DNA of 64,000 nt from Benincasa hispida (taxonomy: Eukaryota; Streptophyta; Magnoliopsida; Cucurbitales; Cucurbitaceae): positions 14,854,790 through 14,918,789 of the forward strand of contig NC_052357.1 of assembly GCF_009727055.1 (NCBI RefSeq). Reading direction: 5' to 3'. The notes beneath the pieces were generated by a model. It ran no database searches and had not been told where the DNA came from. It saw nothing but the letters and a program-made list of their open reading frames with translations. A program made the translations under genes and the position numbers. Of the stretch, positions 14,987 through 64,000 are shown in pieces (the first letter of the stretch is position 1; each line of letters begins with the position of its first letter).

Positions 14987-16453
14987 ATGAATTCTGGTGC
15001 TGAACCAAAATTTTTCGCAGACCCTGAGATCGAGCGAACCTTCCAAGCAAAGATACGTCAGAACAGAAATCAGCAGAAGAGAGCGGCGATGGCAAACAAC
15101 AACGAGGCAATACATGAGAACCAAGGGATTGCACAACTGGCACAGGATCCTGTATTCCTGGCAGCCGATCGCAACATCCCAATGAGGGACTATGCGGCGC
15201 CTAATTTGTATGACTTTTCATTGGGCATTTCAAGGCCAACTGTTGAAGAGAATGCCAGATTTGAAATTTAGCCGGTCATGCTTCAAATGAACCAAAATGA
15301 GGGCCAGTTTTAGGGTTTGCAAGGTGAAGATCCCCATGCCCACTTGACTAGCTTCGTAGAGATGTGTGGCAACTTCTCTATCCCTGGCGTCACTCCTGAA
15401 AACGTTTGGTTATATTTGTTCCCTTACACCTTGAGGGACAAGGCAAAGAAGTGGGCATATACACTGGAGCCCAACGAGATTACATCATCGAGCCAGTTGG
15501 TAGAAAGGTTTATGAAGAAGTTCTTCCCATCGGTCGTTAACGCAAGGAGACAGAAGGACGTGTTGAACTTTGAGCAAAAGGAGAATGAGATCCTGAGCAC
15601 CGCCTGGGTGCGATTCAGAAGATTAGTGAAAAATTGTCCGCATATTGGAATTCCCAATTGCGTCCTGATGGAAACCTTCTATAACAGCATGGACAAAGCA
15701 ATGCAGGTTGTTGTTGATGCCTCCGCTGTAGGAGGATTCATGGACAAGACCTATACTAAAGCTAAGGTCATCCTTGACCGCATCTCGCGGAACATGGACG
15801 ACTGGATCGATGATGGGTATGGAGGAAGAGGAAATGATCGAAGAAAGAATGAAACAGCCATTGTCCTTTTCGAGATAGTAACTGCATTGGCCGCCTAAAT
15901 GGCCACAACTACTTCCATCCTTCAGAAAATGGTCATGAATCAAGGAGCCATTGCCCCAAAATCAGCGCAACTCACTGCACCAGCAGTGGCCGCAATTGGT
16001 TGCGTTAACTGTGGAGAGGCTCATGGGGCTGACAGTTGTCCATTGAACCTGCAGCAGGTGTGTGCAATCCAGAACAATCCCTTCAGCAACACCTACAACC
16101 CAAGTTGGAGGAGTCATCCCAACTTTGGATGGGGTGGCAATCCTAATCAAGGGGAGCTGATGAACCATCAGGGAGGAAACTGGGGCAATTTTCACCAATA
16201 TCAAGGGCAACCAAGACCTCAAAACCAGCAACCCTCATCATCAATGTCGAATGCCTCCGGAGGATCCTTGGAGTCGCTTCTGAAGCAGTGTATGGACAAA
16301 AATGATGCGGTGATGCAAGCTCAAGCATCCTCTATACAGAACTTAGAGATCCAGGTGGGCCAGCTGGCGTCAGAATTAAGAAGTCGTGCACCAGGGACAC
16401 TGCCCAGCAACTCAGAAGCCCCGGGATCTAATGGAAAAGAACAATGTCAATGA
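14987..16453 (+). pseudogene. gag: Athila-like gag, nearly full length (element C)
   Basis: This is the best gag copy: one frame of 489 codons with three internal stops, TAG near 15269, TAG near 15314 and TAA near 15896. The N-terminal part carries PEIERTFQAK and NLYDFS. The capsid-like domain (about residues 111-260) has CGNFSIPGVTPENV, YLFPYTLRDKAKKW and FMKKFFPSVVNARRQ, the usual pattern of the plant retrotransposon gag family. A zinc knuckle of form CX2CX3HX4C sits at about residues 339-351. It is followed by a G/N/Q-rich RNA-binding-like stretch and the helical stretch QNLEIQVGQLASELRSRAPG. TAA in the third stop fits CAA changed by C-to-T. No protease or pol follows, so even when intact the element depended on enzymes made elsewhere. 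Confidence 0.8.
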
Positions 16454-18249: not shown

Positions 18250-18812
18250 ACGGAGAATTGACCTTCGTAAGGGATCAGGGGGAAAGAGTGTAACCAATGG
18301 AACCACTGCAACCTGAAGCAACGTAACCAGTTGCGACGGATGAAGGTGAAGAGACTGAAGGAACCACCCTGATGCAGCGTCGCAGGGAGAATGCGTCGTA
18401 AGGGTCTGACATCGACCCTCAAAGATTAATTTTGGCTTTGGAAGAGAAACAAAGAAAAAGAAAAGAGGAAGAAGAGAGAAAAGAAAAGATGGAGCGCTAC
18501 AAGCTCATAATCGTAGAAGGGGATAGGTGAAGAAGAATCAAATTTGAAGAAGAGTTTGAGAGAGAAGAGAAGGAAGTAGAAGAAGAAGAAAGGAGGAAGA
18601 GGATAGGATTTTGAAAGAAGAGAAGAATAGGAAGCGCGAGGCCAATAATCGGTGCTTGCATAAAAGCAAAGGTAAATGGCTCGCCGAGTGCGAGAGGGAG
18701 GAACAACAAAAGGAATGGGAAAAGAGAGAAAGATAAGCAGCCCATCTTGCACAAGTGCAAAGCAAAGACCTATAAGAAGGCAATAAGCCCGTAGCGGCCA
18801 AGAAGCGATCAG
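18250..18812 (+). mobile_element. Purine-rich remainder of element C
   Basis: No supported gene. It is GA-rich sequence (GAAGAAGAG-type runs from 18440 to 18740) that could encode glutamate/lysine-rich peptide in one frame and serine/phenylalanine-rich shadow frames on the other strand. It ends where element D begins, without a polypurine tract, so the 3' LTR of element C is lost. Confidence 0.45.
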
Positions 18813-19854
18813 TGATAACTTGTAGAAATACAAGTTATTTATGCCATCTTATCTAGGTATTGCGGCCATAAGTAAGGAATTATGCGTTAATTGTAGGAAA
18901 ATTAACTTAGTTTGATAATAATTTCAAATGCTTGCAATAAAATCCACTAATGCCAACAGATGGAGAATATGGCAAAAATTTACTCTGTTTTGCAGGAAAA
19001 CCAAAGTCACCACTTGCGTCCAAGGCTCATGAGAACTTCATCAATGCATCTTTATTACCATTGCGCCCATTAAACGTCATCATGCAAACATTCATTGAAG
19101 AAACGGCGTAATGCGATGGTCGATCCTGATCTACATGACAACCACATGCGGTTATAAAAGTAAACGCCACATGCGAATCTATGATCGAGTGATACAAATG
19201 AGCAATGCAAGAGTGGGAGATTCAGACGCGTGTATAGCTAACGGTTGTGCACAATCTATGATCCCTCTATCTTCTCATGGAAGTAACCTTGCGTTCATTA
19301 TGTTTAACTCTAGTTTCTACACAGACATGTGGGAAACGCGGTTGATCACTGAGAGGTGTATGCCATGAGAAGAACAGAGCAGTATTTGTCTCTTTACTTT
19401 CATTAAGAACTTGCGATGATTTGTATAATTGTCTTTCTTTTCTTTTCCCACCACAAGCCTTGCCACCGCAATCCATGTCCTTGCACAGACTTCACAGCTA
19501 GCCCAACTATTAGCATCTTGTACATTGCGCCTGTATCAAATACATCTAGTTTAGATTTACTGTATTTTTACTACTTTATTATACTTTCTTGTTATTCTAT
19601 TGCTTTTGTATATCACACAACTTAAAGAATTGAAAAACCGGTCACATAACATCATGGAAACACCACATTAAACCGGTATTGTATTTCCCTGTGTTCGACC
19701 TCAGATCATACCGAGAAAATTGCGATGGAATTACACTTGGTTTCATCGTAAGGAAACTTATGACAGAGCAGGGCGTACTACCTAATCATCATAAATATCG
19801 CATCATAAGTAGTAGTATCGCATTGCATATTATCGCATCAAAATTTGCGTTACA
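18813..19854 (+). repeat. LTR family I, 5' LTR of element D, internally deleted
   Basis: It starts TGATAACTTGTAGAAATAC and ends TTGCGTTACA. Near 19262-19277 it jumps from U3 directly to the U5 part that reads ATGGAAGTAACCTTGCG. About 0.7 kb including the TATA box is missing, so this copy lacks its own promoter. The flanking ends remain collinear with other copies. Confidence 0.8.
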
Positions 19855-19860
19855 AGTTTA

Positions 19861-19878
19861 TGGCATCATTGCCGGGGA
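19861..19878 (+). other. Primer binding site (element D)
   Basis: TGGCATCATTGCCGGGGA, a diverged tRNA-Asp type site. Element E has TGACACCGTTGCCGGGGA at 24669. Confidence 0.65.
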
Positions 19879-19977
19879 CTTACTGGTCAACGGTTTATTG
19901 TTTGAGTAGTTTTTGGTGTTGTGCAGGACAGATCTCTTTGTACTGATTGTTTATCGCGGAGAGCAGTCTGACGGCTT

Positions 19978-20245
19978 ATGAGTATTGAAGTGATCCAGAA
20001 ATTCTAAGTGGACCCAGAGATCAGGTGTATTTTTCGCGCAGGAGCACATCAGAACCAGAACATGTGCCGGAATTTCAAAACCTATGGTCGCGGAGAATGC
20101 AAGGGTTGAGAAGTGCAACGCATTCTCTATACCTGGTGTGACTTCATAAGAAATTAGATTGTATCTCTCCTCGTATACATTGTAGGGTAAGACTCGGAAA
20201 GGGGCAATGTCCCTAAGGACATTTGGGCAGGCAAGACTGGACCGC
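19978..20245 (+). pseudogene. Gag remnant of deletion-derivative element D
   Basis: Only about 90 codons of gag-like sequence remain. An N-terminal piece equivalent to PEIERTF is followed almost directly by VAENARVEKCNAFSIPGV and RLYLSSYTL, which match the capsid start of gag in element C. Several stops interrupt it (near 19990, 20148 and 20188). The zinc knuckle and the whole C-terminal half are gone. Element E carries the same reduced form at about 24785-25030, so the deletion predates both copies. Confidence 0.65.
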
Positions 20246-21487
20246 CTGCAGAGATGTGAATGGTGTTCATTCGAAGAAAGTCACATTCCGGTCCATATCT
20301 CACATCTATGTTTAATCGCTTTCTTTACAGCTTTCATTTATAGCTTTCTAAATTCCGTTATTTACTGCTTATTAGAATTAGACCTTAGTGCTTTCGAAGT
20401 TGCATATTTCCATTATGTCATTTCAATCCATAGAGTAGTGTTTGATACATGTTTTTGTGAGTAATAGATGAAGCACTCTTGTCAATTTAAGTTAGAATGG
20501 GAGGAAAATAAACCTTGAATCAATGAAAGAATTGGTGTAGTGAAGAAAAGGAAAAAGTGATATGCATAAAATACACTTAAATACATTGTGATGAGGGGTG
20601 TGTTGTGCATATATGCGTTCTTTGCCCCCACCTTAGTCGATTGCACTATGTTGAGGCATCCTCCAGAAATGCGTTGATTAAGGAGTGTGTTGCGGGGATG
20701 CATATGTGTTGCCCATCCTCAGGAAAAATGTATCTGCGTCTATTGGAAGCATATTAAGATTATGCTTCATACACTTGTTCAAATTCTTTATCTTGTAACT
20801 TAATATTTGACTCTTGTACAGGCCCTAAGAAACTAAGTTTGCGTTCATTTGTAATTATTTGCAAACTTCTTTAATCTTCAATACAATTCCAAGTACATAC
20901 TTACTTCCACTTTTTGCCTTAGCCTCTTTCTTTATCTCCCTTTAGTAATTTATGTTTTCTTTTTACTCTTGTATCTTTACGATCTTCATTGCGTTGCTAT
21001 GATGTATGATATGTGAAACTTAGTAAAATTTCTTATACTTAGTAAATTTTGACTAACACTTAGTTCACTCTTAGATTAGCAGTACTTTACCTTTTACCTT
21101 TCAAAGTCCTACTCAAACCTTCTTTTTGATATTTTCTTCTAAGTGTTTGTCTAGTCTATCCAAACAACGCAATGAGAACCTTGCTCATCTTTAAATTTGG
21201 GGGTGGGGAAGGTCTGAGCAGATGAATGCAAGATTATGTAGTGTTAAAAGAAAATGCGTCTGTTGTTAAGAATTTTTGATAAAAAAAAAAATATATGACA
21301 AACTCCACTATCAGTGCAAAGGATTTCAAAATATTGTTCCCAACCTGATAAGAGTTTAGTTGAGAAAGGAACTTGCTCGTAGTTGGATGTTCGTATGACA
21401 CCCGTAGGAACAAGCCAAAATGAAGGTAGGTTACCAGGAACAATGCAGCATAAAAAAAAATGAAAGAAGAAAAAAAAAACAAAACAG

Positions 21488-21548
<61 letters not shown>

Positions 21549-21990
21549 AACTCCTCTAAGTAACATGAAAATTGGCATACCATCGTAGTTGGATGTTCTC
21601 ATGAAACCTGTGGGAACAAGCCAAAACGAAGAGTGTAATCATGACCAACTGTCCCTAGATGAATAAATAACGTAGAAAAAAAAAAGAAAAAGAAAAAAAA
21701 CTTTTGTTCACAGCATATAGCTTTCTCAAGTTGTTTTGCCATGAAAAGTTAAACATTTGACTTTGAAAATTAGAAAAGTGTTTTCTAGCAGGGTTTTGTT
21801 ATGTAAAAGAATAAAGTAGGGCTTGCTAAGAGTTAGCAAGGATGGAAAGAATTTTCAAAGTTCGGGAATGTGCCTAAGGGTTGCATTCGGAGCAACCAAT
21901 ACTTTCACAAAAATATAGGGTAGGATTAGAGCATGATTTCTTTGGTAGAAGATATGCTTGAGGATAAACATATATCTAAATTTGGGGGTG
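20246..21990 (+). mobile_element. Non-coding internal region and PPT of element D
   Basis: No gene. In order: T-rich sequence; the GTGTGTTGCG boxes (about 20590-20705); a second T-rich part; a first PPT-like TTAAATTTGGGGGTGGGG near 21190; the duplicated hairpin boxes at 21383-21418 and 21589-21624; a poly-A tract; and the terminal ATATGCTTGAGG hairpin followed by AAATTTGGGGGTG just before the 3' LTR. It is collinear with 25031-26750 of element E. Confidence 0.7.
21488..21539 (+). repeat. Poly-A tract of about 50 bases
   Basis: An uninterrupted adenine run that creates phenylalanine-only frames on the other strand. Length is unreliable in short-read assemblies. Element E has shorter A/G-rich runs at the same place. 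Confidence 0.8.
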
Positions 21991-23667
21991 TGATAACTTG
22001 TAGAAGTACAAGTTATTTGTGCCACCTTATCTAGATATTGCGGCCAAAAGTGAAGGATTATGCGCTAACTGTATGAAAATTAACTTGGTTTGTTAATAAT
22101 TTCAAATGCTTGCAATAAATCCCACTACGCCAAAAGATGGAGAATATGGTGAAAATTGACTCTATTTTGCAGAAAAACCGAAGTCACCACTTACGTCCAA
22201 GGCTCGAGAAAACTTCATCGGCGCATCTCTATCACCATTGTGGCTATCGAATGTCAACGCATAAGACAATCACTGAAGAAATGCCGCAAAGTGATAATCG
22301 ATCCTGATTCTCATGATGACTGCATGCAGTAATAAAAATGAACACTACATGTAGACCAACGATCGAGTGATGCAAATGAGCAGCGAAAGTGCAGGAGATC
22401 ATGACACGTGTGCAGCTAATGGCTGTGCAAATTTGACGGTCTGATTGCATAACAGAAGGAATAAAATCCCTCCATCTTCGGAAATTCCATAACAAATGTG
22501 GGGACCACTTGGTCGGAGTCAAAGATGTTCACCTATAAATACCCCCATGGAATTCAGTGAAACGTATTGGGTCAAATTCCAGTGAAAGGGAATTTCAGTG
22601 ACAGGGGATTCCATTCAACTGGGTTCTATCCAATTACATGCTATTTGATGCTGGGCAAAGTGCTGCAAGATTAAAAAGAGAAGAGAGCTTAGCTGAGTGC
22701 TTCAAAGTTAGATCCGAAGAGAAGAAGAGATAAGGCTGAAAGGTGTAATCTCGGATCCTGTCAATCAACATCCTGGAGCGAAGCTCTGTTTAAGGATTCT
22801 GCTACCGGAAAGCCAGCCTGAGAGGGAAGCTCTTCCTATCATCCTTCCAACCACAAGCGGCAAGCAGATCTCCACCGATCAATGACCAAGACTTTGGCAC
22901 TGATCATCTCTACTCTACCTTTTCTTTGTACTCCACATCTTTCTCATCTATTTGTTCATTCATCATGTATCAAACGGTTGATAGAAATATTGGTTGTTTT
23001 GATTATTATCACATACTATATTCTGTCTTTCATCGTTCACCCATTATACACTGTCTTCATAATGTTTTCTTAATCCTTCGATGAGTGCTATAAACATCCT
23101 AGAACTTAATGTAAATTAAAGTTATGTAATACGTTTAGCTAAAGCATGTTGGACGACCTCTTCACCTGTGAGAGCAGAAGTGAAGATGTCATTCTGATCT
23201 ATCGAGAGAATGTCAGGAAAGTGCGTTAACTAAAGTGAGAAGTACTTCCAGACATGGAAGCAACCTTGCGTTCATTACGCTTAACTCTAGTTTCTACACA
23301 AACATGTCGGAAACGAGGCCGATCACTGAGAGGTGTACGCCATGAGAAGAACGGAGCAGTATTTGTCTCTTTACTTTCATTATGAACTTGCAATGATTTG
23401 TATACTTGTCTTTCTTTTCTTTTCCCACCACAAGCCTTGCCACCGCAATCCATGTCCTTGCACAGACTTCACAGCTAGCCCAACTCTTAGCATCTTGTAC
23501 ATCTGTCTCTTATACACATCTAGATGTGTATAAGAGACAGGAATTACACTTGGTTTCATCGTAACGAAACTTGTGACAGAGCAAGGCGTACTACCTAATC
23601 ATCATAAATATCGCATAATAAGTAGTAGTATCGCATTGCATATCATCACATCAAAATTTGCGTTACA
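21991..23667 (+). repeat. LTR family I, 3' LTR of element D
   Basis: It follows the polypurine tract, starts TGATAACTTGTAGAAG and ends TTGCGTTACA, the same end as the 5' LTR of element D. About 210 bases of U5 are replaced by the 38-bp adapter at 23503-23540. The missing part runs from after CATCTTGTACAT to just before GAATTACACTTGG and includes U5 hairpin H1 and half of H2. Confidence 0.8.
23503..23540. other. Nextera/Tn5 mate-pair junction adapter (artefact)
   Basis: CTGTCTCTTATACACATCT is followed at once by its exact reverse complement AGATGTGTATAAGAGACAG. The 19-bp unit is the Tn5 mosaic end, and the head-to-head 38-mer is the circularisation junction of Nextera mate-pair libraries. It is perfect over 38 bases and sits where homologous LTRs have about 210 bases of ordinary U5. 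It is library adapter left in the assembly and not plant DNA. Confidence 0.97.
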
Positions 23668-24662
23668 CTCTCCCCACCATCCTTCACACCACAACCGGCA
23701 AGCAGATCTTCATTGATCGGTGACCAAGACATTGGCGCCTGATTGTCCTTCTTCTACACTTCTCTACGTATTTCATGTTCCTTCTATCTTTCTGTTCATT
23801 CATCATGTATCAAACTCTTAATAGAAATATTAATAGTTGCGATAATATTCATTGTTCATCTTCTGTCTTTCACCGTGCACCTGTTATTCACCTTCTTCAC
23901 TATGTTTTCCTAAACTTTCGATAAGTACTATGAATATCTAAGGACTTAGTGTAAATTAAAGTTATGTAATACGTTTAGCTAAAGCATGCTAGACAACATC
24001 TTCACCTATGAGAGCAGAAGTGAAGATGTCATTCTGATCTATCGAGAGAAGGTCAGAAGAATGCGTTAACTAAAGCGAGTAGTACTTCCAAACATGGAAG
24101 CAACCTTGCGTTCATTACGTCAGACTCTAGTTTCAAAGCAGACATGCGTGAGATGCGGCCGATCATTGAAAGGTGTACGCCATGAGGAAAATGGAACAGT
24201 ATTTGTATCTTTATTTTCATTAAGAACTTGCAATAATTTGTACACTTATCTTTCTTTTCTTTTCTCACCACAAGACTTGTCACCGCAATCCATGTCCTTG
24301 CACAGCCTTCACAGCTAGCCTTACTCTTAGCATCTTGTACATGTAACTATATTGAATACATCTAGTTTAGGATTACTGTTTTTTTACTGCATTACTTTAC
24401 TTTTATTTTATGTAATTCCTTTTGTACACAACACTCTTCAAAGAATTGAAAAACCGGTCGCATAACATCATGAAAACACCGCATTAAAACGGTACCATAT
24501 TTCCCCGTGTTCGATCTCGGATCACACCGAGAAACTTGTGATGGAATTATACTTGGTTTCATCTTAATAAACATCGCATAATCAATAATAGTATCGCATT
24601 GCATGCATCGCATATCACCTCTATCAGTTAACCAAATTTATATATGCGTTAAAACTGCAACA
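23668..24662 (+). repeat. LTR family I, 5'-truncated LTR of element E
   Basis: It starts mid-LTR at CTCTCCCCACCATCC, equivalent to about 27575 in the full copy, and ends ACTGCAACA before a primer site. The whole U3 and TATA box are absent. It is joined directly to the end of the 3' LTR of element D, with no target duplication at the joint. Confidence 0.75.
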
Positions 24663-29433: not shown

Positions 29434-30692
29434 TTGTAGAAGTACAAGTTATTTATGCCACCTTATCTAGATATTGCTGCCAAAAGTGTAGGATTATGTG
29501 CTAATTGTATGAAAATTAACTTAGTTTGTTAATAATTTCAAATGCTTGCAATAAATCCCACTAATGCCAAAAGATGGAGAATATGGCGAAAAGTGACTCT
29601 ATTTTGTAGAAAAACCGAAGTCATCACTTGCGTCCAAGGCTCGAGAGAACTTCATCACCGCATCTCTATCACCATTGCGCCTATCGAATGTCAACAGACA
29701 AAACAATCACTGAAGAAATGGCGCAAGGTGATAATCGATCCTGATTCTCATGACGACAGCATGTAGTAATAAAAATGGACACTACATGCGGACCAACGAT
29801 CGAGTGATGCAAATGAACAGTGCAATTGCAGGAGATCATGACACGTGTGCAGCTAACGGCTGTGCAAATTTGACGGTCTGATTGCATAACAGAAGGAATA
29901 AAATCCCTCCATCTTCAAAATTTCCATTACAAATGTGGGGACCACTTGGCCGGAGTCAAAGATGTTCACCTATAAATACCCCCATGGAATTCAATGAAAG
30001 GTATTGGGTAAAATTCCAGTGAAAGGGAATTTCAGTGACAGGGGATTCCATTGAACTAGGTTTTATCCAATCACATGCTATTTGGTGCTAAGAAAAGTGC
30101 TGCAAGATTAAAAAGAGAAGAGAGCTTAGCTAACTACTTCAAAGTTAGATCCAGGAAGAAAAGGAGATAAGGTCGAAAGGTGTAATCTCGAATCCTGTCA
30201 ATCAACATCCCCAAGCAAAGCTCTATTCAAGGATTCTGCTACTGGAGAGCCAGCCTGAGAGGGAAGCTCTTCCTATCATCCTTCCAACTACAAGCGACAA
30301 GCAGATCTCCACCGATCAGTGACCAAGACATTGGCACTGATCGTCTTTACTCTACCTTTTCTTTATATTCCATGTCTTTCTCATCTATTTGTTCATCATC
30401 ATGTATCAAACGGTTGATAGAAATATTAGTTGTTTTGATTATTATCACATACCATATTCTGTCTTTCATCGTTCACCCATTATACACTGTCTTCATAATG
30501 TTTTCTTAATCCTTCGATGAGTGTTATAAACATCCTAGAAATTCATGTAAATTAAAGTTATGTAATACGTTTAGCTAAAGCATGCTGGATGGCATCTTCA
30601 CCTGTGAGAGCAGAAGTGAAGATATCATTCTGATCTATCAAGAGAAGGTCAGGAGAGTGCGTTAACTAAAGCGAGAAGTACTTCCAGACATG
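29434..30692 (+). repeat. LTR family I fragment, truncated at both ends
   Basis: It starts inside the left arm of the terminal hairpin (TTGTAGAAGTACAAGTT) and ends mid-LTR at ACTTCCAGACATGG. The TATA box remains near 29971. It lies between two copies of the same copia LTR segment. Confidence 0.7.
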
Positions 30693-31064
30693 GTCCAAGT
30701 CTTATACAAACTCTTTGTATAGGACACCCTCGCTCCACATCTCGACATGAATGGTTAGGATTGACCATCTTTAGTAGTTTACAAAATTTACAAACCTCTA
30801 CAAAGCGGCTGTATCCGTAGTGTCGCCAGGATTAGGTATCCCACCTTAATCCTTATACTACAGACCAATTTAGGTTATCACTTAAGGCATGTTTCACTTG
30901 TATATCACATATACATGCTTAAGTTCACATAAGATAACCAAGGAGCTTTGATTATTGGATATGAATAAATGCCAGAATTAAATAACACTTATTTTATTCA
31001 TTGAACAATGTGTAACTTTACAAAACAACAAGACTCCGGGAGAATTAGGACACCAATCCCAACA
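30693..31064 (-). repeat. Copia LTR start, minus strand
   Basis: On the minus strand it starts TGTTGGGATTGGTGTCC, a common form of plant copia LTR start, and runs about 370 bases before it is cut. Confidence 0.65.
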
Positions 31065-62014: not shown

Positions 62015-62439
62015 NNNNNNNNNNNNNNNNNNNNNNNNNNNNNNNNNNNNNNNNNNNNNNNNNNNNNNNNNNNNNNNNNNNNNNNNNNNNNNNNNNNNNN
62101 NNNNNNNNNNNNNNNNNNNNNNNNNNNNNNNNNNNNNNNNNNNNNNNNNNNNNNNNNNNNNNNNNNNNNNNNNNNNNNNNNNNNNNNNNNNNNNNNNNNN
62201 NNNNNNNNNNNNNNNNNNNNNNNNNNNNNNNNNNNNNNNNNNNNNNNNNNNNNNNNNNNNNNNNNNNNNNNNNNNNNNNNNNNNNNNNNNNNNNNNNNNN
62301 NNNNNNNNNNNNNNNNNNNNNNNNNNNNNNNNNNNNNNNNNNNNNNNNNNNNNNNNNNNNNNNNNNNNNNNNNNNNNNNNNNNNNNNNNNNNNNNNNNNN
62401 NNNNNNNNNNNNNNNNNNNNNNNNNNNNNNNNNNNNNNN
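62015..62439. other. Assembly gap (425 N)
   Basis: Unknown bases inside the 3' LTR of the copia element. Open frames crossing it are meaningless. Confidence 0.99.
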
Positions 62440-62465: not shown

Positions 62466-64000
62466 TTACAAACTTCGTAGACCTAGACTCTGTAGGTGAC
62501 CTTCAAACACTTTAGCCGTGAGGGCCTTTGTAAAAGGATCAGCAATGTTTTGCTCAGAAGATATCTGGGTCACTACAACGTCTCCACGATGTACAATCTC
62601 TCGGATCAGATGGTATTTGCACTCAATATGCTTGTCGCGCTTGTGGCTTCTTGGTTCTCTTGAGTTTGCAACTGCACCACTATTATGACAATATAGGGTG
62701 ATAGGCAGATGCATATTTGGAACGACTTCCAAATCTGTCAAGAATTTTCTCAACCATACTACTTCCTTTGCTGCTTCACAAGCAGCTACGTATTCAGCTT
62801 CCATTGTGGAGTTCGCAATACAGTTTTGCTTCATAGTTCTCCATACTACTGCTCCTCCGTTAAGAGTGAACACTGATTCAGATGTAGTCTTTCTAGCATC
62901 TTTATCGATTTGAAAATCAGAGTCAGTGTATCCAGTAAGGATCAAATCCTTAGTACCATACATGAGCTTGTAGTTCCTCGTTCTCCTAAGATATTTGAGG
63001 ATATTTTTAACCGCAGTCCAATGATCATATCCAGGATTGGACTGATACCTATTGACTTCCCTACTGCGTAGCATATGTCAGGTTTAGTATATAATATTGC
63101 ATACATCAGGCTCCCTATTGCGGAAGCATAGGGAATGCGTCTCATATCCTCAACCTCTTGAGGTGTCTTAGGACATAGATCCTTCGACAAATGAATTCCA
63201 TATCTGTAAGATAATAGACCTCTTTTTGAATTCTGCATCTTATACTTAGACAACATTTTATCTATATAAGTTGCTTGAGACATGGCTAGTGTTCTGTTCT
63301 TGCGATTCTGAATAATCTGAATCCCAAGAACATACTGCGCATTTCCTAAATCTTTCATTTGGAACTGCGTTGCTAGCCATTTCTTGATGTCAGTTAGGTA
63401 ACCTACTTCATTCCCAATGAGTAGAATATCATCAACATATAAAATTAAGAACGCTATAGTAGAATTGACGATCTTCTTGTAAACACAAGGCTCGTCAATA
63501 TTCTGTTCAAAGCCATAAGATTTTATCGCAGTATCAAATCTTATATTCCAAGAACTAGAAGCTTGTTTCAACCCATAAATGGATTTTTGAAGCTTACAAA
63601 CCTTTTGTTCTTGACCTTGTGCAATAAACCCCTCGGTTGAGCCATATAGATACTCTCCTCAAGATCATCGTTTAGAAAGGCGGTCTTGACATCCATCTAC
63701 CAAATTTCATAGTCATAAAAGGTTTCAATGGATAAGAGTATTCTAATCGACTTCAGCATGGCAACGGGAGAGAAAGTTTCTTCATAGTCCACTCCCTCTA
63801 TCTGGGTAGAACCCTTTGCCACAAGTCGAGCCTTAAAAGTCTGTACTTTACCGGCTTGGTCTCGTTTTCTCTTGTAGATCCACTTGCAACCAATTGGTTT
63901 TACATCATTTGGTTGATCTACAAGTTTCCAAATAGAATTGAAGTACATAGACTCCATTTCGAGGTCCATGGCTTTGACCCACTGATCACAGTCCACATCT
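62466..64000 (-). pseudogene. pol: Ty1/copia pol: RT and RNase H, 5' part beyond the window
   Basis: On the minus strand the RT begins with WVKAMDLEMESMYFNSIWKL, KWIYKRKRDQAGKVQTFKAR and GVDYEETFSPVAMLKSIRIL. It continues MDVKTAFLND, YGLKQAS-like sequence and the catalytic box LILYVDDILLIG, then GSLMYAILYTKPDICYAVG. RNase H shows LTGYTDSDF, STMEAEYVAACEAAKEVVWL and LYCHNSGAVANSREPRSHK, where the usual CDN is CHN, so a likely catalytic aspartate is lost. A TAG near 63697 (for CAG), a frameshift near 63640 and another near 63070 break it. Integrase, protease and gag would lie beyond 64000. The relatively light damage suggests a younger insertion than the gypsy pol copies here. Confidence 0.85.

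Follow-up and report, generated by a model that had tools for sequence, protein, structure and literature searches.

The interrupted putative LTR and its surroundings

The window, i.e., the whole stretch of 64,000 bases that was analysed, is cucurbit-like plant DNA that contains many pieces of LTR retrotransposons. A retrotransposon gag piece at 15314–15898 matched Benincasa hispida in 10 of 12 cases, with the top three matches at 68–72%, while a reverse transcriptase piece at 62942–63658 (Pfam RVT_2) has a best match of 86% and finds its best-ranked named relatives in Cucumis melo at 76–82%. A run of 425 N at 62015–62439, which is an assembly gap and adjoins a copia-type reverse transcriptase piece, shows that the window belongs to a gapped scaffold.

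The repeat under study runs on the plus strand from TGATAAC at 21991 to TTACA at 23667 and is interpreted here as an LTR. Its left part (21991–23502) follows other LTR copies colinearly as far as a 38-base linker at 23503–23540, and its right end (23541–23667) resumes 202–205 bases further along in six of these copies. In one of the six, termed c19, the same LTR end is followed by what we take to be a primer-binding region. Immediately after TTACA at 23667, the linker-bearing LTR directly abuts the mid-portion of a further LTR copy (the sequence from 23668 on resembles that from 22830 on at 83%), and no left half matching this partial LTR was identified. The junction at 23667–23668 may reflect a nested insertion, LTRs in tandem or a further join made during assembly.

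The number of bases missing at the linker was counted in register from alignments to the six LTR copies in the window that align on both sides of it, all of which are paralogues rather than the orthologous allele. Between the flanks, 202 bases lie in c19 and c28, 204 in c10 and c2, and 205 in c14 and c39; the values for c2, c39 and c28 were corrected by hand from raw differences of 205, 206 and 208, respectively, because the ends of their local alignments are displaced by a few bases. One more copy, the seventh, lies near 32.0–32.3 kb; it is inverted and diverged and has about 219 bases between the flanks (222 raw). Bases are likewise present there in the unit that follows from 23668, which has a deletion of its own just past the resumption point, and the linker site is not covered by other partial copies (e.g., near 30.7, 45.2 and 48.5 kb). 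The sequence around the linker is thus disturbed relative to the six copies, and the loss is close to the figure of about 210 replaced bases given by an earlier reading made from the sequence only (hereafter the sequence-only reading). Comparison among the copies suggests that the missing LTR bases, about 200, do exist at this place in the real chromosome.

The 38-base palindrome and its recurrence elsewhere

A motif search resolves the linker into two 19-base halves, at 23503–23521 on the minus strand and at 23522–23540 on the plus strand, each of which is an exact copy of the mosaic end, the end motif of Tn5 and IS50. Standing head to head, the two halves form a perfect 38-base palindrome, which equals its own reverse complement and to which no strand is assigned. 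No other perfect palindrome in the window exceeds 14 bases. When up to 3 mismatches were allowed, the only match to the 38-mer in the 64,000-base window was 23503–23540 itself, with 0 mismatches, and the only matches to the 19-mer were the two linker halves, one per strand. This agrees with the earlier claim that 38 of 38 bases match a 19-bp mosaic end joined to its exact reverse complement. Other library sequences, namely a TruSeq 13-mer and two Nextera read-primer sequences, gave 0 matches on both strands of the window.

That such a palindrome arose by chance within the LTR is practically inconceivable, and the counts refute it. From base composition, the 38-mer is expected about 3e-18 times per window; it occurred in 0 of 100 dinucleotide shuffles of the window; and there is no second window match, so that the 38-mer is missing from the other LTR copies there.

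An exact, palindromic double mosaic end is the make-up of a mate-pair circularisation linker, and the 38 bases at 23503–23540 are presumably identical, letter by letter, to the Nextera mate-pair junction adapter. A full-text search with the 38 letters led to one paper, PMC7357533, which prints the identical letters as a biotin-labelled "ring adapter" that circularises fragments of about 4 kb in the making of a mate-pair library. The annotation of 23503–23540 as a linker, and hence as an artefact, is based on the sequence match, the perfect palindrome and these printed letters.

The exact 38-mer was found in at least 120 bacterial stretches of a genome collection, and the matches listed comprise 19 organisms by title, including two Enterococcus, two Streptomyces, Scytonema, Collinsella, Ideonella and Pseudomonas. 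It was also found in 7 stretches on 6 contigs of IMG/VR, of which 4 contigs share one metagenome, and in 5 of 72,556 plasmid records; no exact match was found in the phage collection or in the E. coli genome collection. Recurrence in unrelated assemblies is what a library contaminant should show. The single 19-mer mosaic end was found in at least 120 stretches of IMG/VR (L128–L247), where 125 of the 127 matches listed lie within 90 bases of an end of the fetched stretch, a pattern to be expected from adapter read-through, although at some loci the contig itself extends beyond that end. Several bacterial assemblies (L041, L044, L057, L061, L075 and others) carry the 38-mer repeatedly, some with 2–4 linkers per 8 kb stretch, and some of these show duplicated flanks.

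A second alternative is a real chromosomal insertion with two mosaic ends, either of a transposon or of engineered DNA, accompanied by a local deletion. In that case the plant chromosome itself would carry the 38-mer and lack about 200 LTR bases, as the scar of introduced mosaic-end DNA, and mosaic ends are indeed the ends recognised by engineered Tn5 transposase. Tn5 insertion makes 9-bp target duplications. However, exact repeats of 4–12 bases are absent next to the linker, and a comparison of its two 9-base flanks shows 5 mismatches in 9 positions. In addition, the two mosaic ends abut with nothing between them, and the same 38-mer occurs in other assemblies. We therefore consider a real insertion highly improbable, and a natural transposon end, which the sequence-only reading had already dismissed, is rejected for the lack of both a target duplication and a transposon body.

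Because of the exact match, the printed linker in PMC7357533, the recurrence in other assemblies and the missing target duplication, it is almost certain that the 38-mer at 23503–23540 is an untrimmed mate-pair circularisation linker and a laboratory artefact, by whichever route it entered the assembly. A mate-pair linker left in an assembly is very probably what is seen here, i.e., a known artefact rather than biology.

Origin of the flanks and route into the assembly

The left flank (23354–23502) is nearest to c19 at 97.3%, with the next best copy at 91.3%, and the right flank (23541–23641) is likewise nearest to c19 at 96.0%, with the next best copy at 91.1%. Since both are nearest to the same copy, the two flanks probably belong to a single interrupted LTR. 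c19 lies upstream of the linker-bearing LTR, and the stretch at 19.9–22.0 kb between the two may represent the interior of a single element. However, c19 resembles the linker-bearing LTR less closely at 18812–19251, with only 80% against the corresponding part; the upstream 1.26 kb of the linker-bearing LTR finds a better match, at 92.5%, in the copy at 29434–30693. The shared nearest copy thus holds only near the linker, and a closely related second copy is a possible source of one flank. As to the structure of these copies, c19 (18812–19854) lacks about 820 internal bases, with its first 440 bases 80% like the linker-bearing LTR and the rest about 94–97%, and the copy at 29434–30693 stops no more than 5 bases from where c19 resumes.

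We consider the joining of two contig ends over the 38-mer to be the likeliest route, and a probable one, with the assembly step itself deduced from its outcome. The linker of a mate-pair library, made with Nextera or with another protocol that uses the same linker, would have been left untrimmed in the reads that went into assembly or gap closing. The left contig would then have been extended through the LTR by reads running into the linker, and the right contig by reads meeting it from the opposite side. Given a perfect palindrome, the two contig ends would seem to overlap and would be joined, and about 200 real LTR bases from a repetitive stretch would be exchanged for 38 synthetic ones.

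The same artefact could also have arisen if one chimeric mate-pair read bridged the contigs whole, a reading that we regard as rather unlikely, although it holds a minor share of the near-certainty given to the artefact. Such a read would consist of the end of a fragment, the linker and the start of the same fragment, two sites that are kilobases apart in the genome, and the flanks would come from different LTRs, e.g., the 3′ and 5′ LTRs of one element. Within the window, the sequence most similar to the right flank does lie upstream (19728–19854), 3.8 kb before the end of the left flank, which is the order given by a circularised fragment. However, over 127 bases this sequence is only 95.3% identical to the right flank and so differs from the DNA that was assembled here; a chimera from the fragment 19728–23502 of the window locus, which would require 100%, is therefore not supported. 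Moreover, because the flanks are colinear with the same nearest LTR copy, a second locus is unnecessary and the joining of contig ends fits at least as well as a single chimeric read. The sequence-only reading had described the site as a chimera of a mate-pair read and not a real deletion; the exact linker and its recurrence elsewhere uphold the artefact, whereas one mate-pair read is only a possible cause: the flanks are colinear and share a nearest copy, and no identical source was found among the window copies.

Signatures of both routes were sought at 147 linker sites in 120 bacterial loci, taken from among the matches listed, many of which come from few assemblies and are not independent. 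An exact duplication of 17–158 bases abuts the linker on both sides at 18 of the 147 sites, compared with 8 of 20,000 random cuts in the same loci (a control made without N), and this is the trace that a palindromic linker would leave after fusing two contig ends whose sequences overlap. The majority, namely the other 129 sites, lack this trace, with no duplication of at least 12 bases next to the linker, and N occurs within 300 bases at 53 of the 147. For the recurrence of flanks, 123 sites were testable (3 were dropped for short flanks and 21 for N). The first 40 bases of the right flank are found again upstream in the locus at 27 of these, several of them 1.6–4.1 kb away, and the last 40 bases of the left flank are found again downstream at 25, many of the recurrences in either direction being the same abutting duplications. 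The upstream recurrences at 1.6–4.1 kb are as single-read chimeras would give and to that extent favour a single read. Both routes thus seem to occur among the bacterial sites. One plasmid record offers a smaller version of the situation in the window: its two 400-base flanks align colinearly, at more than 99%, to a close relative in which a few dozen bases separate them.

Relation to known linkers and transposons

The matter is one of quality control only. Studies of the LTR family or of indels in this region should mask 23503–23540, and the apparent "deletion" of about 200 bases at the linker should be treated as unassembled sequence. That this contaminant can find its way into public collections is clear from the exact 38-mer in deposited bacterial, viral and plasmid sequences. 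It need not be a harmless insertion either, since its flanks can be altered as well, as the duplications at 18 of the 147 bacterial sites show.

Two mate-pair protocols and one family of transposons are relevant for comparison. First, the Nextera mate-pair junction adapter shares 38 of 38 bases with the window 38-mer and presumably shows no sequence difference from it, and the window copy sits inside assembled sequence; a Nextera origin of the library is, however, an assumption. Second, the Tn5 and IS50 transposon ends have in common with the linker the 19-base mosaic end motif; unlike such a transposon, the window site has no transposon body and no target duplication, and its two ends abut. 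For the Nextera protocol itself, PMC6298255 describes mate-pair tagmentation with biotinylated junction adapters and circularisation, followed by adapter trimming with NxTrim, including of reads with the adapter mid-read. Third, the ring adapter in PMC7357533 has the same 38 letters but is used with DNA that is sheared and ligated rather than tagmented, so that the sequence alone cannot separate it from Nextera. Of the claim that the site is a Nextera mate-pair junction, the mate-pair linker left in the assembly is therefore retained, whereas the attribution to Nextera in particular gives way to either of two protocols that share one linker.
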